A stretch of 64,000 nt of DNA, taken from positions 3,256,001 to 3,320,000 of the forward strand of contig NZ_CP084061.1 in NCBI RefSeq assembly GCF_020215665.1. The letters are read 5' to 3'. The position numbers and the translations under genes are program-made. The stretch is from Blautia parvula. Its GTDB lineage: Bacteria > Bacillota > Clostridia > Lachnospirales > Lachnospiraceae. The notes under the pieces are model-generated. The model was not told the origin of the DNA, made no database searches, and worked only from the letters and a program-made list of their open reading frames with translations. Positions 52,252-64,000 of this stretch are shown piece after piece. Within the stretch, counting starts at the first letter, position 1, and each line of letters opens with the position of its first letter.

Positions 52252-52500
52252 TTATAGATTTGGTGCCTTTTCTTTCATCTCCTCAAAATATCTTTCAGCA
52301 ATATACTCCGCCGATTCTGCCCAAAAAGCATTTTCAGTGTTTTGTAAGGTTTTATATGTCTGTGATTTATAGAAACGCATTACCGCCTCCTCAAAATCAA
52401 TTCCCAACTGCTCCTGCATTATATCTACAACAGCTCTGATCTGGATACAGACATTCATGGTTATATCTTTTCCATTAAAGGTATAAATTATATCACTCAT
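52252..52500 (-). CDS. Small companion protein of a DUF3990 locus
   Basis: An 82-residue protein. It begins MSDIIYTFNGKDITMNVCIQ and contains RFYKSQTYKTLQNTENAFWAES, a pattern (FYxSxTY..L....T..W..S..Y) that I associate with small genes accompanying DUF3990 proteins. Its start overlaps the end of the DUF3990 frame by eight bases and has GGGAGGG upstream. It may be an antitoxin-like or accessory partner; its function is unproven. Confidence 0.6.
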   Translation of the reverse strand: MSDIIYTFNGKDITMNVCIQIRAVVDIMQEQLGIDFEEAVMRFYKSQTYKTLQNTENAFWAESAEYIAERYFEEMKEKAPNL

Positions 52501-53164
52501 ACTTTTCCCTCCCTATGAATCGCAGGTAAGCCAGTGCTTTCTCCGTATGGAAAAACACCTGGTTGTTTACCTTACTATATCTTAAACGCTTAACAGCCTC
52601 TTCTGCGGTCAATATCCCCGATATATATAACTGCACAGTTTCCATCGTGTTATCATCCGCCACTGGTCCAATAACGATATCATAAGTATGCTGCGTTCCA
52701 CCTTGGGCTCTGTTCCTTTTAATGAATTCCAGCCACTCTTGGTTCAATGAGTCAAAGCGTTTTATTTTAAGCATTTCGTTGATATAGATAATAGCACTGC
52801 GCTTTTTCTCTCAGCGAAAGCCGGTACCCCCACTCGATTGCCTGTGTCTTCAAAATAGTTGTATAAAACCCTCTCCCAAAATCTCTCCGGTTACGAGACT
52901 TAGTCAATTCAATTGACTTAAAATCATAGGTAGTCCCGTGGTAAACAATGAGTTCCTTAGATTCTTCTCTAATAATTTTATCTACATATTCCACCGTTTC
53001 TTCAAAATCCACCTGATGGAGATATTCATGCTGAATCATAATTTTTCAAATACTTGACATTTATGAAACAATTCAGTGACATCCTCTCCGGACAAATGAT
53101 TGCGCTTTGCATATGTTTCCATTGCTCGTAAAGATAACATCTCAACATCTGTTTGAATACTCAT
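52493..53164 (-). pseudogene. DUF3791/DUF3990 locus broken by frameshifts
   Basis: Three consecutive minus-strand reading pieces look like parts of one or two family proteins. Piece 1 (53164-53036, 42 residues) has LSGEDVTELFHKCQVFEKL, the N-terminal half of DUF3791. Piece 2 (53039-52767) opens with YLHQVDFEETVEYVDKII, its C-terminal half, and continues into LIVYHGTTYDF and DFGRGFYTTILKTQAIEW, the start of DUF3990. Piece 3 (52774-52493) gives the rest of DUF3990 (KRFDSLNQEWLEFI, YDIVIGPVADD, LYISGILTAEEAVKRLRY). The frame changes fall near 53038 and within about 52775-52800, the latter probably with a small deletion. DUF3990 is related to ADP-ribosyltransferase-like toxins. The locus appears inactive, unless the pieces are made separately. 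Confidence 0.65.
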
Positions 53165-53243
53165 AGTTTTCCTTTCAGCCCCTCACACAGTAATATTGTC
53201 ACCTATAGTATATCCATCTTTTAATGCAAAATCAACAAAATAC

Positions 53244-53278
53244 AGCGGCAACCCCCTCAACTTGAGAGAATTGCCGCT
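53244..53278. terminator. Hairpin AGCGGCAA/TTGCCGCT
   Basis: Eight-base arms with an inner CTCAA/TTGAG pairing; the plus strand continues with ATTTTCG. It may be a terminator, but its gene is unclear. Confidence 0.45.
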
Positions 53279-53335
53279 ATTTTCGAGATACCGTACTGCG
53301 TGTTACTGATATTCATTTATTTGATTTCTAAACAT

Positions 53336-53451: not shown

Positions 53452-53766
53452 TCAGGCTTTTTCTCTTGCTTTATCCAGTTTTACATTTCTGAAATAGAGT
53501 GCCATGTCAATGGAAATCTCAACAATATTCAGTATGTAGAAGAACCATCCCAGATAAAACAGCCAGTCAAGAGAAGTTCCTGCTGATCCGGCTTCCATCC
53601 ACAGAATCACTTTGCGGGCAATACCGAACACGTAACCAATCCAGATAAAGAACTCAAAGAAAAGGCTCTTTCCTTTTGCTGTTCTGGAAATCCAGGATTT
53701 ACGGATTGAAATCGGCCACGACAGGCCGAAGCAGAGTATCATAAGTGCTTCTAATAAGTTTGTCAT
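53452..53766 (-). CDS. Small PQ-loop-like membrane protein
   Basis: A 104-residue protein with three to four membrane helices: LLEALMILCFGLSWPISI, then a cytoplasmic RKSWISRTAKGKSLFF, two further helices and a C-terminal YFRNVKLDKAREK tail. The SWP...SRTAKGKS pattern resembles PQ-loop (SemiSWEET-like) repeats where a proline follows a helix and an S/T-x-x-S stretch starts the next; a single repeat unit would act as an oligomer. Function unknown. The ATG at 53766 with GGAG upstream is preferred to the frame start at 53802. Confidence 0.6.
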   Translation of the reverse strand: MTNLLEALMILCFGLSWPISIRKSWISRTAKGKSLFFEFFIWIGYVFGIARKVILWMEAGSAGTSLDWLFYLGWFFYILNIVEISIDMALYFRNVKLDKAREKA

Positions 53767-53856: not shown

Positions 53857-54417
53857 TTACTCTTTATGCTGTGCCAGATAAGCGGCTCTGCCCTCTTCGT
53901 ACAGGTTCTTTCCTTCGCTGTCGATGATGACAAACAGAGGCATATCCTCCACATATAATTTTCTCAATGCCTCCGCGCCCAGATCTTCATACGCGATCAG
54001 TTCCGCTTTTTTTATACATTTTGCCAGCAGTGCGCCTGCTCCGCCGATCGCGCCGAAGTAAACGCCGCTGTATTTTTTCATAGCCTCAATGACTTCCGGA
54101 AGGCGGGCGCCTTTTCCGATCATACCTCTTGCACCTACGGACATCATAGTCGGTGCATAGGCATCCATACGTCCGCTGGTGGTAGGGCCTGCGGAGCCGA
54201 TGACCTGGCCCGGTTTCGCCGGTGTGGGGCCCACATAATAGATGGTAGCGTCAGTGGGGTCAAAGGGAAGTTCCTCACCTCTTGCCAGTGCTTCGCACAT
54301 GCGCTTGTGGCCTGCGTCACGTGAGGTGTAGATGGTTCCTGTTACATATACGGTATCTCCCGCATGAAGAGTTTTTGCCAGCTCTTCGGTAAGGGGCAGT
54401 GTAATATGTTTTTCCAT
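53857..54417 (-). CDS. fumB: Class I fumarate hydratase, beta subunit
   Basis: A 186-residue C-terminal-type subunit of an oxygen-sensitive 4Fe-4S fumarase (or tartrate dehydratase). Motifs TSRDAGHKR, YYVGPTPAKPGQ, GPTTSGRMD and GAIGGAGALLAKCIKK are typical of the substrate-binding beta chain. It starts right after the alpha subunit stop, with GGAGGTG upstream, and is the last gene of an 11-gene operon. Together with the alpha subunit it converts malate to fumarate, the substrate of the adjacent fumarate reductase. Confidence 0.93.
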   Translation of the reverse strand: MEKHITLPLTEELAKTLHAGDTVYVTGTIYTSRDAGHKRMCEALARGEELPFDPTDATIYYVGPTPAKPGQVIGSAGPTTSGRMDAYAPTMMSVGARGMIGKGARLPEVIEAMKKYSGVYFGAIGGAGALLAKCIKKAELIAYEDLGAEALRKLYVEDMPLFVIIDSEGKNLYEEGRAAYLAQHKE

Positions 54418-55260
54418 TTAAATCACCTCCGTTTTGTGGCGGGTCACGTGGCAGTTGATATTGATGGCACACGGCATACCTGCAATATGTGTGGGCATGG
54501 TCTCAATGTTCAGTCCGATGGCAGTGGTCTTACCCCCGAATCCCTGCGGTCCGATACCGAGCTTGTTGATCTTGTCCAGCATTTCCACTTCCAGATCCGC
54601 ATAGTACGGGTCCTCATTGGAGGAATCAATGGGCCGCATCAATGCTTTTTTCGCAAGAAGGGCAGCCTTGTCAAAAGTACCTCCGATGCCCACGCCCACA
54701 ACCATAGGCGGACATGGGTTCGGGCCTGCTGTCTCGACTGTCTCCAGGATGAAATCCTTGATTCCCTGCAGGCCTGCTGACGGTTTGAACATGCGGATAG
54801 CACTCATATTCTCACTTCCGAAGCCTTTCGGTCCCACTGTGATCTTGATCTGCTCACCCGGAACAATCTCGGTATAGATCATGGCCGGTGTGTTGTCGCC
54901 TGTGTTGCCTCTGCGCACCGGGTCTTTTACTACGGATTTTCTCAGGTATCCCTTATCGTATCCGCGGCGCACGCCTTCGTTCACAGCCTCGCTTAAATTA
55001 CCGCCTGTGATATGTACGTCCTGTCCGATTTCCAGGAATACGCATGCCATTCCTGTATCCTGGCAGATTGGTACATTCTGTTCGTCAGCGATCTCAAAGT
55101 TCTCAATAATATTGTCCAGAACGCCCTGTGCAATTTCCCAGTCTTCACATGCTCTGCAGTTTTTGATCGCACATTTCACATCCTCAGGCAGATGTTCATT
55201 GGCCTGGATGCAAAGGTTCTCAATGACATCTGTTATCTGGCTTGCCATTATTTCACGCAT
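54418..55260 (-). CDS. fumA: Class I fumarate hydratase, alpha subunit
   Basis: A 280-residue alpha chain carrying the catalytic 4Fe-4S cluster. Cluster cysteines are likely in VPICQDTGMA (about residue 66), PNPCPPMVVGVG (about 187) and a third near CAININCHV at the C-terminus. KPSAGLQGIKDF and GGTFDKAALLAKKAL are family segments. The start has AGGAGAG nine bases upstream. It is 14 bases downstream of the fumarate reductase flavoprotein gene and abuts fumB. Confidence 0.93.
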   Translation of the reverse strand: MREIMASQITDVIENLCIQANEHLPEDVKCAIKNCRACEDWEIAQGVLDNIIENFEIADEQNVPICQDTGMACVFLEIGQDVHITGGNLSEAVNEGVRRGYDKGYLRKSVVKDPVRRGNTGDNTPAMIYTEIVPGEQIKITVGPKGFGSENMSAIRMFKPSAGLQGIKDFILETVETAGPNPCPPMVVGVGIGGTFDKAALLAKKALMRPIDSSNEDPYYADLEVEMLDKINKLGIGPQGFGGKTTAIGLNIETMPTHIAGMPCAININCHVTRHKTEVI

Positions 55261-55274
55261 ATACGTTCACTCTC

Positions 55275-56876
55275 CTATCTCTCGTGGCGGGCATATTTAG
55301 GAAGCAGCAGCGGTGATACATCATCGGAAGCAATGCCTGCATTATTCAGTTCTTCCGCATATTTCTCAATATGCTCCAGTGTCATGGTGCCAAGCTCTGT
55401 CTCTTTTGCCCTGGCTGCTGCGGCCTTACCTGCGTTGCGGCCGAATACAATGATATCCAGAAGAGAGTTGCCCATCAGACGGTTTCTGCCGTGGATTCCG
55501 CCTACCGCCTCACCGGCTACCAGCAGATTGCTGATTTCCTTTGTAAATCCGTCTCCGCCGATCTCCAGACCGCCGTTCTGGTAATGAAGAGTCGGGTATA
55601 CAAGAATCGGCTGTTTTCTCATATCAATGTCATAGTTCATGTACATACGAAGCATGGCAGGGATACGTTTCTCAATAGTACCCTCTCCGCCGATTCTCTC
55701 GATCATGGGCGTATCCAGCCATACACCGCTGCCAAGAGGTGTTGCCACGCCTTTACCCCTGTCGCTGCACTCGCGGATAATGGAAGCTGCTGCCACGTCA
55801 CGTGTCTCCAGAGGATGCATAAATGCCTCTCCGTCAATATTTACAAGCATGGCTCCCAGAGAACGTACTTTCTCTGTAACAAGAGCACCGAAGATCTGTG
55901 CCGGATACGCAACACCTGTAGGATGATACTGAATGGTATCCTGGTATAAAAGCGGAGCACCTGCACGGTATCCCAGAACCAGACCGTCTGCGGTTGCACC
56001 ATAATGATTGGATGTGGGGAAATTCTGATAGTGGAGACGTCCTGCGCCGCCGGTCGCAATGATAACCGTCTTTGCTCTTGCCACCATATAGTCCTCTGTC
56101 TCCATGTTCTGAAGAACAGCACCTGCCACTTGACCTTTTTCGTCCTTGATCAGCTCCACTGCGGATGTAAATTCCACAACGGGGATCTGACGGTTTAAAA
56201 CCTCATCGCGCAGAGTACGCATGATCTCCGCACCGGAGTAATCCTTGCAGGCATGCATTCTCTTTCTGGAGGTACCGCCGCCGTGGGTGGTGACCATATT
56301 TCCCTCTGCGTCCTTGTCAAACATAACACCCAGCTTGTTCAGCCACTGAATCGCGTCCGGGGCTTCCATAACCAGTCTTCTCAGCAGTTCCGGCCTTGCT
56401 GCAAAATGTCCGCCGCCGAAAGCATCCAGATAGTGCTGTACCGGGGAGTCATTTTCCTTGTCTGCTGCCTGGATACCGCCCTCTGCCATCATGGTGTTGG
56501 CATCACCGATACGCAGTTTTGTGACGATCATAACGTCTGCGCCTGCCTCGTGAGCTTCGATCGCAGCGGAAGAACCTGCTCCGCCGCCGCCGATCACCAG
56601 CACGTCCACGTCATAATCCACTTTGTTCAAATCTATATCCACATTTAACAGACGGCTGTTGGAGTGGAGTAAATGTCCCAGCTCTGTGGGGGCTTTCTGG
56701 CCCTTGTTTGGTCCGATCTTGATCTCTGTAAAGCCGTCTTTTTTGTAGTCCGGATGATAAGCCTTCAAGAGGGCGTCTTTTTCATCAGCGGTCATACGCC
56801 TGGGTTCCATGCCCATACGTTCGTCTCTGGTCGCTTCCACCTTTTTAATGGACTCAAGCATTTCTGGTGTAAACAT
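55275..56876 (-). CDS. Fumarate reductase flavoprotein subunit (soluble, TfrA/FrdA type)
   Basis: A 533-residue FAD protein of the succinate dehydrogenase/fumarate reductase flavoprotein family. The dinucleotide motif VLVIGGGGAGSSAAIEA starts only near residue 92, after an unusual 90-residue N-terminal extension. Family segments follow: MMAEGGIQAA, THGGGTSRKRMH, ATGGAGRLHYQNFPTSN, IQYHPTGVAYP and the C-terminal GIHGRNRLMGNSLLD. No membrane anchor gene (FrdC/FrdD) is in the operon, so the enzyme should be cytosolic, as in thiol:fumarate reductase of methanogens. RBS GGAGGGATAGCC. It should reduce fumarate to succinate with electrons from the adjacent iron-sulfur subunit. Confidence 0.85.
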   Translation of the reverse strand: MFTPEMLESIKKVEATRDERMGMEPRRMTADEKDALLKAYHPDYKKDGFTEIKIGPNKGQKAPTELGHLLHSNSRLLNVDIDLNKVDYDVDVLVIGGGGAGSSAAIEAHEAGADVMIVTKLRIGDANTMMAEGGIQAADKENDSPVQHYLDAFGGGHFAARPELLRRLVMEAPDAIQWLNKLGVMFDKDAEGNMVTTHGGGTSRKRMHACKDYSGAEIMRTLRDEVLNRQIPVVEFTSAVELIKDEKGQVAGAVLQNMETEDYMVARAKTVIIATGGAGRLHYQNFPTSNHYGATADGLVLGYRAGAPLLYQDTIQYHPTGVAYPAQIFGALVTEKVRSLGAMLVNIDGEAFMHPLETRDVAAASIIRECSDRGKGVATPLGSGVWLDTPMIERIGGEGTIEKRIPAMLRMYMNYDIDMRKQPILVYPTLHYQNGGLEIGGDGFTKEISNLLVAGEAVGGIHGRNRLMGNSLLDIIVFGRNAGKAAAARAKETELGTMTLEHIEKYAEELNNAGIASDDVSPLLLPKYARHER

Positions 56877-56888
56877 GGCTATCCCTCC

Positions 56889-57563
56889 TTATTTCTCAAT
56901 CTCTCTTGTGTTGTAAAGTTCCTGCATTTCCGTAATGGGTTTCTGCATAACCTGCTCGATCAGTTCATCATAAGCACCCTTATGGATCTCCTCCACGCGG
57001 TTTTTCAGATGTTTTGTCTCAGGCGCGATATATTTTCCTGTGAGGCGCCTTGCAAGAAGACCAACCATAGGATGAGAAATGCCGGCCGGGCATCTTACGG
57101 AACAGCAGCCGCAGCTTACACAGTCAAAGGACTCCTCTGCGCATTTCTCAAATTCCCCTCTCTGTGCGTAAGCAATGTACTGCATAACGTTCAGATCCTG
57201 TGTACAGGCTTTTGTACAGGCATTACATCCGATACAGCTGTAGATCTCCGGATAGAGTTCCATCATGATCTGCTGAGTCGGTTTGATCTCCTCTATATCA
57301 TAAGTTCTCTTATCTGTGGGGAAGAAGGGGATGCTTGCCACATACATGCCTTCCTCCACCTGTGTCTGACAGGCAAGACAGGTCTTTAACTCGTTCTTTC
57401 CCTTGATTCTGTATATTGTAGCACATGCCCCGCAAAAGCCGTGACGGCAGCCGCATCCTCTTTTCAGGGTGTAACCGGCATATTCCATGGCTGTCATGAT
57501 CGTCAGATCTGCAGGCACGCTGTATTTCTTACCAAAGAAATATACATTTACCATTTTTTCCAT
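56889..57563 (-). CDS. Fumarate reductase iron-sulfur subunit (FrdB/TfrB N-terminal type)
   Basis: A 224-residue subunit with an N-terminal [2Fe-2S] ferredoxin domain (CGCRHGFCGAC, later CLAC) and a C-terminal helical domain with two cysteine clusters (CIGCNACTKACTQ and CVSCGCCSVRCPAG). It links an electron donor to the flavoprotein subunit. Methanogen TfrB has an additional HdrB-like CCG domain, which is absent here but present as the separate hdrB gene at the head of this operon. An upstream in-frame TTG (57575) lies one base from AAGGAAAGG; the ATG at 57563 is preferred. Gaps to its neighbours are 20 and 12 bases. Confidence 0.88.
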   Translation of the reverse strand: MEKMVNVYFFGKKYSVPADLTIMTAMEYAGYTLKRGCGCRHGFCGACATIYRIKGKNELKTCLACQTQVEEGMYVASIPFFPTDKRTYDIEEIKPTQQIMMELYPEIYSCIGCNACTKACTQDLNVMQYIAYAQRGEFEKCAEESFDCVSCGCCSVRCPAGISHPMVGLLARRLTGKYIAPETKHLKNRVEEIHKGAYDELIEQVMQKPITEMQELYNTREIEK

Positions 57564-57583
57564 TATAGGTACCAATCCTTTCC

Positions 57584-58438
57584 TTAATACTCATTCGGTA
57601 ATTCATCAATCTCATCACAGCGGAATACCGGTCCGTCTTTGCACACGTACTTGGAACCGATGTTGCAGCGTCCGCATTTGCCTACGCCGCATTTCATGCG
57701 CAGCTCCAGAGTTGTGTACACCTGCTCTTTGGAGAATCCCATCTCCTGCAGAGCTGCCAGCACGAACTTGATCATGATCGGCGGGCCGCAGACAAGGGCT
57801 GTCTTGTCCGTGGTAAAGCCCACTTCTTTCAGGTAGTTTGGTACGAATCCCACATGGCCGTCCCAGCCTTCCTGCTCCCGGTCGATGGTCAAATATACAT
57901 TCACGCCCTCTGTCTTCATCCAGACTTCCTGGATCTCTTTTAACTGGACCAGATCGTCTGCGGATCGGGAACCGTAAAGGATGTCCACAGTGCCGTAGTT
58001 CTCTCTGTTGTCCAGCACATAGTTGATCACGGAGCGCAGAGGCGCAAGGCCGATACCGCCTGCGATAAACAGCAGGTTTTTGCCTTTTAACTCAGTCTCT
58101 ACCGGGAAATGATTTCCGTATGGCCCTCTCACGGTGATCTCGTCGCCCACCTCAAGGCTGTGGAGATAATCGGTGAGGACACCGCATTTCTTGATGCTGA
58201 ATTCCTGGAATTCTTTGTTAGTCGGTGAGGAAGTAATGGAAAACATACCTTCACTGATGCCCGGTGCACACACCATGGCACACTGTCCGGGCATATGTTC
58301 AAAAAGCTTTCCGCCCTCCGGCGCGTTTACGCGGAAGGTCTTCACATCCGGTGTCTCCTGGCGGATATCCGTGATGACTCCCACCTGGGGGATCAGCGTA
58401 TCCAGTGTATAATTCTTATGACAGGTACATTCACTCAT
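57584..58438 (-). CDS. flxA: FlxA-type NAD(P)H:FAD oxidoreductase with [2Fe-2S] cluster
   Basis: A 284-residue flavoprotein of the ferredoxin-NADP reductase fold, the NADH entry subunit of Hdr-Flx complexes. FAD-binding barrel with FSITSSP and VRGPYGNHFP, pyridine nucleotide site LFIAGGIGLAPLRSVI and LVCGPPIMIK, and a C-terminal [2Fe-2S] cluster in MKCGVGKCGRCN ... YVCKDGPVF. It is plainly related to AsrB at 45432-46226. The ATG overlaps the flxB stop by one base (TAATG) with GGGAGGTG upstream, showing tight coupling. Expected partners: FlxB, FlxC and HdrABC. Confidence 0.88.
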   Translation of the reverse strand: MSECTCHKNYTLDTLIPQVGVITDIRQETPDVKTFRVNAPEGGKLFEHMPGQCAMVCAPGISEGMFSITSSPTNKEFQEFSIKKCGVLTDYLHSLEVGDEITVRGPYGNHFPVETELKGKNLLFIAGGIGLAPLRSVINYVLDNRENYGTVDILYGSRSADDLVQLKEIQEVWMKTEGVNVYLTIDREQEGWDGHVGFVPNYLKEVGFTTDKTALVCGPPIMIKFVLAALQEMGFSKEQVYTTLELRMKCGVGKCGRCNIGSKYVCKDGPVFRCDEIDELPNEY

Positions 58439-59478
58439 TATTTGTCACCTCCCTGGTTCTGAAAGGATTTGATAACCTTTACGATATTTAAGGAAGCCGG
58501 GCATTTTTCCACACATCTGCCGCAGCCTACACAGGAATACATCCCGTCGTTGTTTGCCGGGAAATATACCAGTTTATGCATAAATCTCTGACGGAAACGC
58601 TGCATCTGGCTCGTACGGTTGTTCCCGTGTGCCATCATGGTGAAATCCGAGTACATGCAGGAATCCCAGCAGCGGTATCTCTTGATTCCGTGGCCTGTGT
58701 CGTAGTCCTTGATGTCATAGCACTGGCAGGTTGGACATACAAAGGTACAGGTTCCGCACGCCAGACATGGCTTGTACAGTTCTTCCCAGAGTTCTGAATT
58801 GAATTTTTCGTTTAATGCCTCCCCGTTCCATCCTTCCAGGGAAAGATTGGAGTAAGGCAGCTTCTCAACGATTCCGCGGATGGATGCTTTCTCTTCCTCC
58901 ACTTTCTTCTCGTCCTCAGCGTCTGCCTCAGCAAGAAGGCTTTCTGCAGATTTCGTAAGGGCATCTCCCTTTTCTGTGAGGGATTTCCAGTAAAGCTCCT
59001 CGCCTGTCATCCACACAGCCACATCTGCCACCGGCTCTGCACAGTCTGCGCCAAACACTTTACAGAAGCAGGTCTCTTCCGGCTCATGGCATGCCATAGC
59101 CACAATAGTACCGTGCTCACGCCTTGCCGCATAGAAAGAGTCTACCGGGTCAGCTAAAAATACTTTATCTAAAACCTCCACACCTTTCACATCGCAGGCC
59201 TTCATTCCAAATACCACAAAATCCTGCTCTTTCAGTGCTTCCGGTTCAACTGTCAGCTTTTTTCCGTCCTTTCTGCAGGTATACAGATCCTCACTCTGGG
59301 GGAAGAACGCGTCTTTTGGAGATTTCACCGTCTTCAGTGTATCAAGATCCACCTCCGCGTCCTCGCTCCATGCTCTGAAGTTCACCTGTCCGCTCACTTT
59401 TACAGGAAGGTATAATTCCCGGGAGCCGGCGATCAACTGGAATAATGCCGCCAGATTTTCTTTTGCTATCTTATACAT
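58438..59478 (-). CDS. flxB: FlxB-type 4Fe-4S electron-transfer subunit (AsrA-like)
   Basis: A 346-residue protein with two C-terminal ferredoxin-type clusters (CLACGTCTFVCPTCQC about residue 238 and CVGCGRCVEKCPAS about 316) and an N-terminal AsrA-like domain (FVVFGMKACDVKGVEVLDKV, CHEPEETCFC). It has a 35-residue acidic helical insertion (LLAEADAEDEKKVEEEKAS) not seen in AsrA. It should pass electrons from FlxA toward HdrA. The RBS is AAGGGG; the gap to flxC is three bases. Confidence 0.86.
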   Translation of the reverse strand: MYKIAKENLAALFQLIAGSRELYLPVKVSGQVNFRAWSEDAEVDLDTLKTVKSPKDAFFPQSEDLYTCRKDGKKLTVEPEALKEQDFVVFGMKACDVKGVEVLDKVFLADPVDSFYAARREHGTIVAMACHEPEETCFCKVFGADCAEPVADVAVWMTGEELYWKSLTEKGDALTKSAESLLAEADAEDEKKVEEEKASIRGIVEKLPYSNLSLEGWNGEALNEKFNSELWEELYKPCLACGTCTFVCPTCQCYDIKDYDTGHGIKRYRCWDSCMYSDFTMMAHGNNRTSQMQRFRQRFMHKLVYFPANNDGMYSCVGCGRCVEKCPASLNIVKVIKSFQNQGGDK

Positions 59479-59481
59479 ACA

Positions 59482-60456
59482 TTATCCCCTTTCTGCCACA
59501 ATGCCTGGCTCTACGTCATCAAAGGTAAAGTCTGTCAGCGGTCCTCTGGAATCTGTGTCTTCACCGGCCTGATATTCTCCGTAGAACTCATTGATGTCCT
59601 TGATGAATTTCCGGTTGAACAGATGAAGGGGGATTCCCTGGGGACATACACGGCTGCACTCTCCGCAGTCTGTACAGCGTCCTGCCACATGGAAAGCACG
59701 GATGATGTGGAACATCTTCTCTTCAAAGGAGTCCACATTAGCTTTCTGGGAACTGTCAAACTTGTTGCTGTCAAATACACATTTTCTGCAGCTGCATGCA
59801 GGACATACGTTTCTGCAGGCATTGCAGCGGATACATTTGCTTAACTCCTTCTGGAAAAACGCAAATTTCTCCTCCGGGCTCATGGCCTCAATGGCAGCCA
59901 CACTGTCAAAACGCTCTGCGTCTTTTGTCTCTTTTGATTCTCCGATCAGCTCATCGTATATCTTATGCTCTTTGCCTTTGCATACATGGCATCTCTCCAG
60001 CATGGCATCTGCATAGGAACAGGTCTTCTCTCCGTAGAGGGTCTGTATGGTCAGGGTATCTGCCCCATCTGTGATCTCGGCGCCGGAAATACTCTCGATT
60101 CCCTTGATCCCCATACCTTTGATCTTTTCAATATCCAGCTTGCCTTTGCAGCCCACACCGATAATATAGGCTTTTTCCCTGTCCACCCTGTGCTCCTTGA
60201 TGAGCTGGTTAAAGCTGTAGGTATCACACGGTTTCAGGCATACCAGGGTCTTTCCCTCCAGTTTGGAGGCTTCAATCATATATTTGCTTAAATTGGCTCC
60301 GCAGAATCCGTTGTATACGAAATTCTCAAAGTCCTCTTCTTTTTCAAAATATGCCGGTTCCGGATTGTAAGGCAGGTCTCCCGCTTTCCAGCCGAGAACA
60401 CGGGCTACGGTACCGTCCGCTAACAGCTCTTTTGCACGGTTAATCAATTCCTGCAT
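59482..60456 (-). CDS. flxC: FlxC-type iron-sulfur subunit (FrhB/FdhB-like)
   Basis: A 324-residue iron-sulfur protein. N-terminal half resembles the FrhB/FdhB fold (LVCLKPCDTYSFNQLIKEH, AYIIGVGCKGK, ERCHVCKGKEH); the C-terminal half has two clusters (CIRCNACRNVCPACSCRKC and CTDCGECSRVCPQGIPLHLF). This matches FlxC of flavin-oxidoreductase modules associated with HdrABC. The ATG overlaps the mvhD-like gene by 13 bases and has GGAGGATTTG upstream. Confidence 0.84.
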   Translation of the reverse strand: MQELINRAKELLADGTVARVLGWKAGDLPYNPEPAYFEKEEDFENFVYNGFCGANLSKYMIEASKLEGKTLVCLKPCDTYSFNQLIKEHRVDREKAYIIGVGCKGKLDIEKIKGMGIKGIESISGAEITDGADTLTIQTLYGEKTCSYADAMLERCHVCKGKEHKIYDELIGESKETKDAERFDSVAAIEAMSPEEKFAFFQKELSKCIRCNACRNVCPACSCRKCVFDSNKFDSSQKANVDSFEEKMFHIIRAFHVAGRCTDCGECSRVCPQGIPLHLFNRKFIKDINEFYGEYQAGEDTDSRGPLTDFTFDDVEPGIVAERG

Positions 60457-60887
60457 CTCAAATCCTCCAATCTTACGTTTTTGCCCAGAGAGCGGACTTT
60501 TTCCACAAACTCATTCATGGTAGTGGAGAATTTGACACCCTCTGCGGCTGACACCCATTCCACACGGGTACGTCCGTTTTCCACGCCGATATAATCCAGC
60601 ATGGAGAATAAAAGTGTCATACGCCTTCTGGCATAGTAGTTTCCTGTGCTGTAGTGGCAGTCTCCCGGATGGCATCCGCAGAGGATCACACCGTCCGCAC
60701 CTTTCTCAAATGCTCTCAGGATGAACATGGGATTTACACGGCAGGAACATGGCACACGGATGATCTTCACATCTGCAGGATAGGAAAGGCGGCTGCTTCC
60801 GGCCAGATCCGCACCTGCATAACTGCACCAGTTACAGCAGAATGCCACAATTTTAGGTCTGAATTCTTCCTTTGTTTCTATCGACAT
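60444..60887 (-). CDS. mvhD: MvhD/FlxD-type [2Fe-2S] linker protein
   Basis: A 147-residue protein of the MvhD family that bridges HdrA to an electron-donating module. Cluster-ligand segments are visible: FCCNWCSYAGADLAG, RVPCSCRVNP and LCGCHPGDCHY. The start is the ATG at 60887, inside the 3' end of hdrA (10-base overlap), with GGAGGTGG upstream; the longer frame is not credible. It is followed by flxC with overlap. Confidence 0.92.
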   Translation of the reverse strand: MSIETKEEFRPKIVAFCCNWCSYAGADLAGSSRLSYPADVKIIRVPCSCRVNPMFILRAFEKGADGVILCGCHPGDCHYSTGNYYARRRMTLLFSMLDYIGVENGRTRVEWVSAAEGVKFSTTMNEFVEKVRSLGKNVRLEDLRCRN

Positions 60888-62866
60888 ATTGCATCCACCT
60901 CCGCTATGATCTGTCTGTTCGAGAATCCCTGTAAGTCCATGGCTCCTGACGGGCAGGCAACGGTACAGGCTCCGCATCCCTGGCAAAGCGCATTGTTCAC
61001 AACTGCGATACGGCGTGTCTCACGGATTCCGTGGTCATTCACCTCTTTGTCCTCGTAAGTGATGGCACCGTACGGGCACACATTTTCACAGGTGGAACAT
61101 CCGTTGCAGAGAAGTTCGTCGGATTTGGCTGTACATGGGTTTGTCATCAGCTTGTCTTTTGCAAGAAGCCCGATGGCTTTCACTGCCGCTGCTCCTGCCT
61201 GGGAAACAGTCTCAGGTATGTCCTTGGGTCCCTGGCATACGCCTGACAGGAAGATACCTGCCGTTGGGGATTCCACGGGACGAAGCTTGGGATGTGCCTC
61301 GGTCAGGAAGTTGTTGGTATCTATGCTGGCTGTGAGCATGGTGGCAATCTTCCTTACAGAAGGATCCGGTTCAATGGCTGTAGCCAGAACCACCATATCT
61401 GCCTCCATGAGGATCTGCTTGTTATCAATGAGGTCAACGCCCTGTACTAATAACTGTCCGTTTGGCTGGGGAGCGACTTTACCCACCTGGCCTTTGATGT
61501 AGTTCACACCGTATTCCTCCACGGCTCTTCTGTAGAACTCATCAAAGTTTTTGCCCGGGGTACGGACATCAATGTAAAATACAGTCACGTTCACATCCGG
61601 ATATTTATCGCGGATCAGCATGGCGTGTTTTGCTGTGTACATACAGCATATCTTGGAGCAGTAGCTCTTTCCTCTCTTGTCCGCGCAGCGGCTTCCCACA
61701 CACTGGATAAACACCATATTCTTCGGCGCCTTCCCATCGGACATGCGTTCCAGATGGCCTTTGGTAGGTCCTGCTGCGTTCATGATACGCTCCAGCTCCA
61801 GGGATGTGATCACATCCTTGCTCTGGTTGTACGCATACTCATCGTAATTATCCAGCTTGATGGTGTCAAAACCGGTGGCAACTACAATGGCACCGTACTT
61901 CTCTGTAAGGATCTCGTCCTTCTGCTCATAATCAATGGCACCTGCCTGGCATACCTTGGCGCAGACACCGCATTTTCCTGTCTTGAACTTAATACAGTTC
62001 TCTCTGTCAATAACAGGAACATTGGGGATTGCCTGGGCAAACGGTGTGTAGATGGCGCTTCTTGTATTCAGGCCCCTGTTGAACTCATTGGAATTCTTCT
62101 TGGACGGGCATTTCTCCTGGCATACGCCGCAGCCTGTACATTTGTCCATATCCACACTTCTTGCTTTCTTGCGGATATCCACTGTAAAATCACCTACAAA
62201 GCCGGAAACCTTTTCCACCTCGCTGTATGTATAGATGTTGATCTTCTCATGAGCGGATGCCTCCACCATCTTAGGTGTCAGGATACAGGCAGAACAGTCC
62301 AGTGTAGGGAAGGTCTTGTCAAGCTGTGACATTCTTCCGCCGATACTGGGTGTCTTCTCCACAATATCCACTTCGTAACCCGCCTCTGCAATGTCAAGTG
62401 CGGTCTGGATACCTGCAATACCGCCGCCGATCACCAGGGCACGTTTTGTGACAAGGCTCTCGCCCGGCTTCAAGGACGCGTTCAAATTCACTTTCGCGAT
62501 TGCCGCTCTTGCAAGGATGACTGCCTTCTTGGTAGCCTCCTCCATATCCTTGTGGATCCAGGAACAATGTTCACGAATATTGGCGACTTCCACCATGTAT
62601 GGGTTTAATCCGGCTCTCTCCGCTGCCTTGCGGAAAGTGGTCTCGTGCATACGCGGTGAACAGGAACATACCACAAGTCCTGTCAGTTTTTCATTTTTGA
62701 TAGCCTCTGCGATTTTGGACTGTCCGGCTTCGGAACACATATACTGATAATCTTCCGCATGGACAACTCCCGGCTCCATTTTAGCCATTTCCACTACTTT
62801 TTTTACATCTACCGTAGCAGCGATGTTGCTGCCGCAATGACAGACGAATACACCTATTCTCTGCAC
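60878..62866 (-). CDS. hdrA: Heterodisulfide reductase subunit A-like bifurcating flavoprotein
   Basis: A 662-residue iron-sulfur flavoprotein, the likely site of electron bifurcation. N-terminal IGVFVCHCGSNI and VCSCSPRMH, FAD motif LVIGGGIAGIQTALD (about residue 145), the HdrA-specific LDCSACILTPKM, inserted ferredoxin motifs (CTGCGVCQEKCPSK, CGVCAKVCQAGA), a cysteine segment YCSKICCMYTAKHA, and two C-terminal clusters (CNGCSTCENVCPYG, CQGCGACTVACPSG). The start is GTG at 62866 with AGGAGGTGAGG upstream. Full-length single HdrA, not fused to HdrB or HdrC. Confidence 0.94.
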   Translation of the reverse strand: MQRIGVFVCHCGSNIAATVDVKKVVEMAKMEPGVVHAEDYQYMCSEAGQSKIAEAIKNEKLTGLVVCSCSPRMHETTFRKAAERAGLNPYMVEVANIREHCSWIHKDMEEATKKAVILARAAIAKVNLNASLKPGESLVTKRALVIGGGIAGIQTALDIAEAGYEVDIVEKTPSIGGRMSQLDKTFPTLDCSACILTPKMVEASAHEKINIYTYSEVEKVSGFVGDFTVDIRKKARSVDMDKCTGCGVCQEKCPSKKNSNEFNRGLNTRSAIYTPFAQAIPNVPVIDRENCIKFKTGKCGVCAKVCQAGAIDYEQKDEILTEKYGAIVVATGFDTIKLDNYDEYAYNQSKDVITSLELERIMNAAGPTKGHLERMSDGKAPKNMVFIQCVGSRCADKRGKSYCSKICCMYTAKHAMLIRDKYPDVNVTVFYIDVRTPGKNFDEFYRRAVEEYGVNYIKGQVGKVAPQPNGQLLVQGVDLIDNKQILMEADMVVLATAIEPDPSVRKIATMLTASIDTNNFLTEAHPKLRPVESPTAGIFLSGVCQGPKDIPETVSQAGAAAVKAIGLLAKDKLMTNPCTAKSDELLCNGCSTCENVCPYGAITYEDKEVNDHGIRETRRIAVVNNALCQGCGACTVACPSGAMDLQGFSNRQIIAEVDAICR

Positions 62867-62872
62867 TTAACC

Positions 62873-63262
62873 TCACCTCCTGTATCTTCTGAATGCACTG
62901 ACTAAAAGCTGCTGCGGAAGTTCCGGGTCCAAAAGCTCAGGGATTTCATCAGCCATCAGGTAATCCCCGCCCTTCTCGCGGACCACAAGCTGTCTTGCCG
63001 CATCAATGAGTTTGCCCGGTTTTACATCCCTTGGGCAGCGCTCCACGCATGCAAAGCAGGAAAGGCATTTCCAGAGAGATTTTGAGTTCACCAAAGACTC
63101 GATATCTTCATTCTGCACATAAGATACAAACTGATGGGGTTTGATGTCCATTTCATTGTAGGATGGACAGGATGCAGAACATTTGCCGCATTTCATACAT
63201 TTCAGCGGATTGACACCGCTGATTTCCTTAATCATTTCAGCCTGTTTTTTTGGAGTATTCAT
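62873..63262 (-). CDS. hdrC: Heterodisulfide reductase subunit C-like ferredoxin
   Basis: A 129-residue soluble protein with two 4Fe-4S motifs: CMKCGKCSASCPSY (about residue 22) and CLSCFACVERCPRD (about 66), the standard HdrC pattern without a membrane domain. It carries electrons between HdrA and HdrB. The ATG at 63262 has GAGGAGG ten bases upstream and overlaps the hdrB stop by four bases (ATGA). Confidence 0.92.
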   Translation of the reverse strand: MNTPKKQAEMIKEISGVNPLKCMKCGKCSASCPSYNEMDIKPHQFVSYVQNEDIESLVNSKSLWKCLSCFACVERCPRDVKPGKLIDAARQLVVREKGGDYLMADEIPELLDPELPQQLLVSAFRRYRR

Positions 63263-64000
63263 GCTTTTGCTACCTCCTCTTTCACGCCGAGAGCTTCTGC
63301 CAGAAGTTCTGTAAAATAGTATACCGGAAGTCTGCTGCCGCAAGTGCTCTTATTCAGGTTATACAGGCATAATGGACAGGCTGTGATCAGCATGTCAGCT
63401 CCAAATCCGGATGCGCTGTCCATGATCTTATCACACATGGTTTTTGACATCTCTTTTTCCTTCAGGGATATGTAGCCGCCGCAGCACTCGTTTCTGTACG
63501 GATAGATCACCGGCTCTGCACCGATGGCCCGGATGAAGTCCTCGATGATGGACGGATTCTCCGGATCGTCGAATTCCAGAAGCCCGCTTGGGCGAAGAAG
63601 CAGGCATCCGTAGTAAGCGCCTATCTTTTTGCCGGTAAGCGGAGCTGTCACTTTCTCCTTTAACGTGTCGAAACCTATGCGGTCACGGAGTACCTCCAGA
63701 AAATGGAGCACTGTCGTCTCACCTGCATAGGGTTCTTCTAACTGCATATAATTATTTGCTCTGGTGCGAATATCGTCTGCGTTCTTCATATCATCATTGA
63801 CACGTTTTATCACATGATGACAGGCAGAACAGAGTGTTACCAGATCCTGGCCTTTTTCTTTGGCCTCATTGAGAGCACGGACGGAAGAAAGTTTTGTGGC
63901 GATCTCGTCAGTGCCCAGCGGATAAACTCCGCCGCAGCACTGCCAGTTTTCAATTTCTTCCAGTTCAAATCCCAGTGCCCTTGCAGAAGCTCTGGCATAA
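63259..64000 (-). CDS. hdrB: Heterodisulfide reductase subunit B-like protein (partial, runs off window)
   Basis: The visible 247 residues lack the N-terminus, which lies beyond base 64000. Both CCG domains of HdrB are represented: CCGGVYPLG with CSACHHV in the first and CCGGYISL with CPLC in the second, which bind non-cubane 4Fe-4S clusters in HdrB. An internal GTG at 63813 gives a shorter open frame but is not the start, since the same frame stays open to the window edge and carries the first CCG motif. First visible gene of the Hdr-Flx-Frd-Fum operon. Confidence 0.92.
   Translation of the reverse strand, partial: YARASARALGFELEEIENWQCCGGVYPLGTDEIATKLSSVRALNEAKEKGQDLVTLCSACHHVIKRVNDDMKNADDIRTRANNYMQLEEPYAGETTVLHFLEVLRDRIGFDTLKEKVTAPLTGKKIGAYYGCLLLRPSGLLEFDDPENPSIIEDFIRAIGAEPVIYPYRNECCGGYISLKEKEMSKTMCDKIMDSASGFGADMLITACPLCLYNLNKSTCGSRLPVYYFTELLAEALGVKEEVAKA

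Follow-up and report, generated by a model that had tools for sequence, protein, structure and literature searches.

A Blautia parvula gene cluster that probably encodes a soluble, NADH-dependent electron-bifurcating fumarate reductase

Two described systems are among the closest to the gene cluster treated here. FlxABCD-HdrABC, reported by Ramos and co-workers in 2015, is said to be a reduced nicotinamide adenine dinucleotide (NADH) dehydrogenase/heterodisulfide reductase, and TfrAB, reportedly described by Heim and co-workers in 1998, is the thiol:fumarate reductase of methanogens. Relatives of both are encoded side by side in Blautia parvula (GCF_020215665.1, a single-contig assembly of 6.25 Mb, here genome G000), at the end of a stretch of 64 000 nucleotides, the window (NZ_CP084061.1, here contig C1, G000:C1:3256001–3320000). 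The minus-strand genes hdrBCA-flxDCBA-frdBA-fumAB (window positions 53857–64000) probably encode a soluble NADH-dependent electron-bifurcating fumarate reductase, as judged from comparative sequence analysis.

The first-pass annotation of this DNA knew of no characterized enzyme of such composition. The open-access literature, in the parts available, does not contradict this, and no biochemical proof for such an enzyme was found in it, most subscription journals being outside its scope; however, both the composition and the ferredoxin idea are already in print (PMC7282089, PMC6315080). According to the available passages of PMC7282089, the ‘succinate operon’ of Pseudoclostridium thermosuccinogenes joins fumarase, Flx-Hdr and fumarate reductase genes, is ∼4-fold up at low CO2 and is assumed to couple to ferredoxin, an idea for which a 2019 preprint (doi 10.20944/preprints201912.0288.v1) is cited. 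In tubeworm symbionts, tfrAB accompanies flxABCD-hdrABC, and direct electron transfer to thiol:fumarate reductase is suggested (PMC6315080, accessible sections). New here are a malate-type dehydrogenase at the head of the cluster, a dedicated HdrB clade with a residue signature, and natural swaps of modules.

Re-reading of the gene run and family searches confirm the eleven minus-strand genes in the order and spacing first annotated, with two amendments. The window end truncates hdrB (63259–64000 in the window, extending to 64059; whole gene G000:C1:3319259–3320059), and the cluster begins one gene earlier, beyond the window, with a gene of the lactate dehydrogenase (LDH)/malate dehydrogenase (MDH) family (C1:3320085–3321032) located 25 bases upstream of hdrB. 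In transcription order, the distances in bases are −4 (hdrB/hdrC), +6 (hdrC/hdrA), −10 (hdrA/flxD), −13 (flxD/flxC), +3 (flxC/flxB), −1 (flxB/flxA), +20 (flxA/frdB), +12 (frdB/frdA), +14 (frdA/fumA) and 0 (fumA/fumB).

The Flx-Hdr subunit set is complete. FlxA (57584–58438) has the FAD/NAD(P)H-binding domains (PF00175, PF00970, PF10418) of an entry subunit. Two Fe–S proteins, named from their places in the gene order under the usual nomenclature, are FlxB (58438–59478; PF17179, E 1e-30) and FlxC (59482–60456). FlxD (60444–60887) belongs to the MvhD/FlpD family (PF02662, E 7e-55), and HdrC (62873–63262) is a [4Fe-4S] dicluster protein of Fer4 type. HdrA (60878–62866), a FAD/Fer4 protein of HdrA type and the expected site of bifurcation, can be aligned along its entire length with methanogen HdrA (5odc_A, E 2.8e-202). 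HdrB carries two CCG domains. Many HdrAs in a tool-drawn sample of 398 genomes of the phylum contain a single in-frame TGA, perhaps a selenocysteine codon (e.g. G098:C3:403517–405493); the window's HdrA has none.

FrdB (56889–57563) combines a [2Fe-2S] domain (Fer2) with an HdrC-like domain for two [4Fe-4S] clusters (Fer4), and its [2Fe-2S] ligand set and two complete CxxCxxCxxxC [4Fe-4S] sets are kept in 51/51 sequences. It therefore does not belong to the quinone-linked FrdBs, which carry a [3Fe-4S] cluster, and no gene for a membrane anchor, as expected beside quinone-linked SdhB/FrdB, was found among the cluster genes, the upstream one included. The second half of FrdB is homologous to the operon's HdrC (hhalign probability 96.8, E 2e-10, with shallow profiles). 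On the 488-residue TfrB model, FrdB (224 amino acids) aligns to positions 19–178 only and HdrB to positions 415–486, while an HdrB of the other type (locus L152) aligns to positions 263–471. Since the two proteins fall on separate stretches of the model, TfrB resembles a natural FrdB–HdrB fusion; the earlier statement that the cluster encodes these modules as separate genes is borne out, FrdB being without a fused HdrB domain. FrdA (55275–56876; FAD_binding_2) scores best on the TfrA model, yet below its cut-off. With residue roles as known for the succinate dehydrogenase/fumarate reductase family, the catalytic His, Glu, Arg, His and Arg are kept in 50/50 FrdAs and the Thr in 49/50. Asn replaces the FAD-linking His in 50/50, so that the FAD should be bound non-covalently.

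The upstream dehydrogenase extends the pathway by one step. NCBIfam names it L-LDH (above cut-off), and its best PDB matches are LDHs. In this family, Gln in the substrate-specificity loop denotes an LDH and Arg an MDH. Since Arg occupies that site in all 43 copies compared (source genome and 42 related loci), the protein is read, despite the names of its matches, as an MDH of LDH ancestry. With class I fumarase α (fumA, 54418–55260; PRK06246, above cut-off), class I fumarase β (fumB, 53857–54417; PRK06842 and TIGR00723, above curated cut-offs) and frdBA, the cluster would thus span the route from oxaloacetate by malate and fumarate to succinate.

We infer the reaction, its bifurcation, the order of carriers and a direct HdrB–FrdB contact as follows. 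NADH would enter at FlxA, its electrons reaching HdrA's FAD by way of FlxB/C and FlxD (MvhD). There each pair would be split, ferredoxin receiving one electron and the second travelling along HdrC, the dedicated HdrB and FrdB to FrdA, where fumarate would become succinate (net: 2 NADH + fumarate + oxidized ferredoxin → 2 NAD+ + succinate + reduced ferredoxin). Fumarate would be supplied from oxaloacetate by the malate-type dehydrogenase and the fumarase of the cluster, and Rnf, encoded elsewhere, could convert reduced ferredoxin into an ion gradient. Taking potentials of −320 mV for NADH, +33 mV for fumarate/succinate and −420 to −500 mV for ferredoxin, the forward reaction would release ∼33–49 kJ/mol, and ferredoxin reduction is therefore affordable. 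It is highly improbable that the complex runs in reverse, oxidizing succinate with electron confurcation to NAD+. Such a gene set is reversible in principle, and frdBA loci linked to malic enzyme may work oxidatively, but the reversal is unfavourable by that amount and mdh and fumAB suit the reductive direction. In addition, P. thermosuccinogenes, the owner of a comparable operon, produces succinate (PMC7282089, available passages).

The arrangement is well kept in relatives, Blautia glucerasea (L011), a culturable one, included, and so is more than a chance grouping. The counts that follow concern a selected set, the best 80 of at least 580 loci encoding a relative, ranked by FrdA similarity. 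The order hdrBCA-flxDCBA-frdBA is colinear in all 52 loci with at least 8.5 kb upstream; of these, 36 have an mdh of at least 55% identity, three have a distant copy (36–37%), and in 13 none is seen. Downstream, fumAB is present in 57 of the 66 loci with 3 kb in view and absent in nine. The frdA–fumA distance exceeds 900 bases in 28 of the 57, and in the four copies examined the interval is filled by an AspT/YidE-type transporter, a candidate succinate exporter that is not in the window's operon (L008:11698–12972 and L015:11645–12808 by family search; L013:11628–12791 and L016:11687–12952 by reading).

Conserved co-occurrence of frdAB-like with hdrABC-flxABCD genes, proposed as a check in the first-pass annotation, is found at two levels. 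In the family (Lachnospiraceae, judging by how FrdA relatives are named; an even, tool-drawn sample of 150 genomes, HdrA being counted at ≥1035 bits), FrdB occurs in 16 genomes and HdrA in exactly the same 16. Both are on one contig, a few kilobases apart, in 14 of them (in G495 with HdrA in two pieces) and on separate contigs of draft assemblies in G441 and G454; another two genomes, where FrdB is absent, encode HdrAs that are more distant (905 and 859 bits). At the phylum level, the link lies in HdrB. An HdrB profile matches 156 of the 398 genomes at E 1e-30, and those whose HdrB reaches 245 bits or more, hereafter Frd-type (28 genomes, 11 families), all fall within the 39 genomes that encode FrdB; this cut was picked after seeing the list, the lowest score kept being 245.4 and the next 231.7.

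Frd-type HdrBs also stand apart in a tree of 51 rows, where the 37 from Frd operons and from six unlinked sites in FrdB genomes form one clade (100/100). The 14 rows outside it comprise 11 from Flx-Hdr operons of FrdB-less genomes, two from FrdB genomes in which FrdBA is flanked by cytochrome-type proteins, and one from G281, its second HdrB. That last row is locus L114, counted with the non-Frd rows because only this second HdrB lies in its fetched stretch; L119 and L127, at contig ends, yielded none. In seven of the 28 genomes (G010, G091, G185, G210, G235, G350 and G370), the Frd-type HdrB is unlinked from frdBA, and in G366 they lie on separate contigs, next to a contig end. The six unlinked loci fetched, out of seven, read hdrB-hdrC-hdrA-flxDCBA (L148 stops at flxB). 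G091 clusters with loci of the order frdBA-hdrBCA-flxDCBA in both the HdrB and the FrdAB tree.

The two HdrB groups differ at nine near-fixed positions, of which six are at most eight residues from cluster-1 ligands (post hoc p 0.003). The Frd-type signature, mostly around cluster 1, consists of P47, L48, V83 and H119, and less strictly of T10 and R86. As a check, five HdrBs below the cut (222.8–231.7 bits, not the next five in rank) have other residues at positions 47, 48, 83 and 119. G252 and G281 each hold both types, and in G281, called by residue, the first HdrB (one of the 28) has the Frd set and the second other residues at the same four positions. Exceptions concern the less strict positions: residue 86 is also Arg in L157, one of the five below the cut, and Thr10 occurs in one of the 14 non-Frd rows. 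As to whether the dedicated HdrB is of SdhE-like or HdrB-like origin, the score on the NCBIfam SdhE model minus that on the HdrB model is +7 bits for the window's protein, −13 to +13 for five other Frd-type rows and −24 to −6 for five non-Frd rows, values that favour neither origin.

These data bear on a scheme with two enzymes linked by a thiol carrier, in which NADH would serve Flx-Hdr to reduce a disulfide, the resulting thiol then driving the reduction of fumarate in the way known from the thiol:fumarate reductase of methanogens. Such a scheme would account for the two noncubane cluster motifs kept in HdrB and for TfrA being the top-scoring model, albeit below cut-off, of FrdA; for the tubeworm case, PMC11636981 considers, in its accessible part, either direct transfer or a protein like DsrC. 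It is nevertheless unlikely. FrdB is without an HdrB domain and the source genome encodes a single full-length HdrA match and a single HdrB (E 1e-30), so that one HdrB would need to be shared by the two enzymes, and the residues that set Frd-type HdrB apart lie mostly around cluster 1. The single HdrA and single HdrB thus favour direct wiring from HdrB to FrdB. The source genome further encodes a single FrdA, besides a NadB-like protein 31% identical to it, RnfC followed by genes reading as RnfD and RnfG, and a phosphoenolpyruvate carboxykinase-family protein (61 bits, above cut-off).

A candidate second fumarate reductase at C1:1686 kb (70% DNA match) was rejected, being a fumAB paralogue in a glutamate mutase-type cluster and not frd. 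This second fumAB pair (L084:7886–9315, C1 ∼1685.9–1687.3 kb) is 58–59% identical to that of the operon. Its neighbours, named by reading, are genes for glutamate mutase, methylaspartate lyase and citrate/citramalate lyase-like proteins, i.e. the methylaspartate route of glutamate fermentation, and the pair is probably a mesaconate hydratase.

Across the phylum sample, the 39 FrdB genomes represent 16 families and the surroundings of frdBA vary (only some neighbour genes being confirmed by family search). The hdr-flx-frdBA layout is found in two, the source genome and G257 (hdrC and hdrB swapped). Four have frdBA-hdrBCA-flxDCBA, in two cases preceded by aspartase (one by family search, one by motif). 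Five show hdrCB-frdBA with no HdrA or Flx gene in view (L099, L105, L112, L113 and L116; L105 is a 3.8 kb contig), with fumAB in view at L112, L113 and L116. In 11, two of them shortened by contig ends, the order is hdrCB-hdrA, a second HdrA-like protein, flxD, a weak flxC and frdBA; at L114, the second HdrA-like protein includes an NAD(P)H domain of GltD-like type. L114 (11922–16391) and L160 encode this as a 1489-residue GltD-like NAD(P)H dehydrogenase–HdrA fusion; the surrounding run of genes closes with frdBA and includes two HdrB types. In the remaining 17 loci, the fetched stretch shows no Hdr gene, and the partners are malic enzyme/fumarase (six, by motif and profile), mdh (one), pyruvate carboxylase (three), membrane Fe–S, flavin mononucleotide-binding or cytochrome-type proteins, NrfH-like ones included (six), or none recognized (one). 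The pyruvate carboxylase gene lies upstream of frdBA in L108 (family search) and in L109 and L110 (shared peptides). No HdrA was found at E 1e-80 in the genomes of these three, where this fumarate reductase probably works without Hdr.

Such diversity leaves room for FrdBA and Flx-Hdr being mere neighbours, co-regulated and unwired, Flx-Hdr reducing ferredoxin with an acceptor of its own and FrdBA drawing on another donor such as ferredoxin or flavodoxin. The 17 loci with other partners and the ten FrdB genomes without Frd-type HdrB agree with this explanation. It is quite unlikely all the same, since the HdrB clade is tied to FrdB and is kept in seven genomes even when unlinked, and since in the hdrCB-frdBA loci HdrBC is the sole Hdr partner in view. 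It is as plausible as its opposite that the dedicated HdrB/HdrC pair serves as the standard adaptor between a soluble FrdBA core and swappable inputs, be they Flx-HdrA (for NADH), the GltD-like NAD(P)H dehydrogenase–HdrA fusion, or none (no HdrA); the window's operon would then be the NADH-bifurcating version of a modular family marked by its HdrB residues.

Collectively, NADH-driven fumarate reduction coupled to ferredoxin, as first proposed for the cluster, is a likely and the best-supported reading, and the HdrB clade, co-occurrence and residues strengthen it. In its favour are the tight gene run from dehydrogenase to fumarase, Arg in 43/43 dehydrogenases, the intact catalytic residues of FrdA, the domain match of FrdB to TfrB, the HdrB clade, and the two co-occurrences (28 within 39 genomes; 16 with 16). 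Other operons keep the same logic (aspartase-frdBA-hdrBCA-flxDCBA in two of four; the GltD-like–HdrA fusion of L114), the genome has one HdrA, one HdrB and one FrdA as well as Rnf genes, and P. thermosuccinogenes induces its comparable operon at low CO2 (PMC7282089, available passages).

Several points weigh against it. Part of the co-occurrence stems from common descent, and in the HdrB tree two rows drew warnings of long branches (L114 and L151). The ten cluster cysteines of HdrB are invariant in the 37 Frd-type rows and also in the 14 others, and a protein with all ten may still handle a disulfide by a thiol route. Eleven of the 39 FrdB genomes have no Frd-type HdrB; one, G254, is contig-broken, the other ten lack it, and among these G067, G071, G296 and G380 gave no HdrA match at E 1e-80. 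FrdBA can therefore draw electrons from other donors and, on these gene contents, appears not to be inherently tied to Hdr. The predicted structure of FrdB (mean pLDDT 50.1) is too poor for use. In the available passages of PMC7282089, induction of the P. thermosuccinogenes operon is not significant for all subunits, and among redox treatments H2 fits the ferredoxin idea while Na2S has the opposite effect. In Endoriftia, tfrAB expression did not follow the rest of its cluster, according to the accessible part of PMC11636981.

Beyond fumB, a gene for a small hydrophobic protein with no family match (53452–53766, minus strand) starts after 90 bases and is possibly co-transcribed with the cluster; some relatives, L003, L014 and L081 among them, retain it 3′ of fumB. 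It is followed by a terminator-like hairpin of 18 pairs (53242–53280, minus strand); overall, the terminator scan performs at chance rate (10 found, 11.5 expected), its sole other minus-strand match lying inside flxB. Further on (52252–53039), three short overlapping minus-strand open reading frames resemble, by reading, a split or broken gene set.

If the bifurcating scheme is true, succinate would be made without a membrane-bound quinone-linked fumarate reductase, with energy from the large NADH-to-fumarate drop still conserved as reduced ferredoxin, and fumarate would join the acceptors of HdrABC machines. The HdrB signature and the natural module swaps offer handles on how HdrB delivers electrons to a partner that is not a disulfide. 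For P. thermosuccinogenes, gene silencing by CRISPRi has been described (PMC9044749).

Compared with known systems, the cluster contains all seven subunits of FlxABCD-HdrABC but differs in having frdBA and fumAB attached and an HdrB of a separate clade, with its own cluster-1 residues. It shares with TfrAB an FrdA that scores best on the TfrA model, and an FrdB and an HdrB that align to separate TfrB parts; unlike TfrB, its HdrB is a separate gene product, and an NADH/HdrA module is added. The tubeworm symbionts and Thioflavicoccus likewise have fumarate reductase genes beside Flx-Hdr, with direct transfer proposed, but within a carbon-fixation cluster of the reductive tricarboxylic acid cycle in which korABCD is interspersed (PMC6315080 and PMC11636981, accessible parts). 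By comparison of gene lists, the operon of P. thermosuccinogenes likewise combines fumarase with seven Flx-Hdr genes and two for fumarate reductase, and it comes with the same ferredoxin proposal, as far as the available passages of PMC7282089 go; there, however, fumarase comes first and a putative transporter last, whereas the Blautia cluster is headed by mdh and ends with fumAB.

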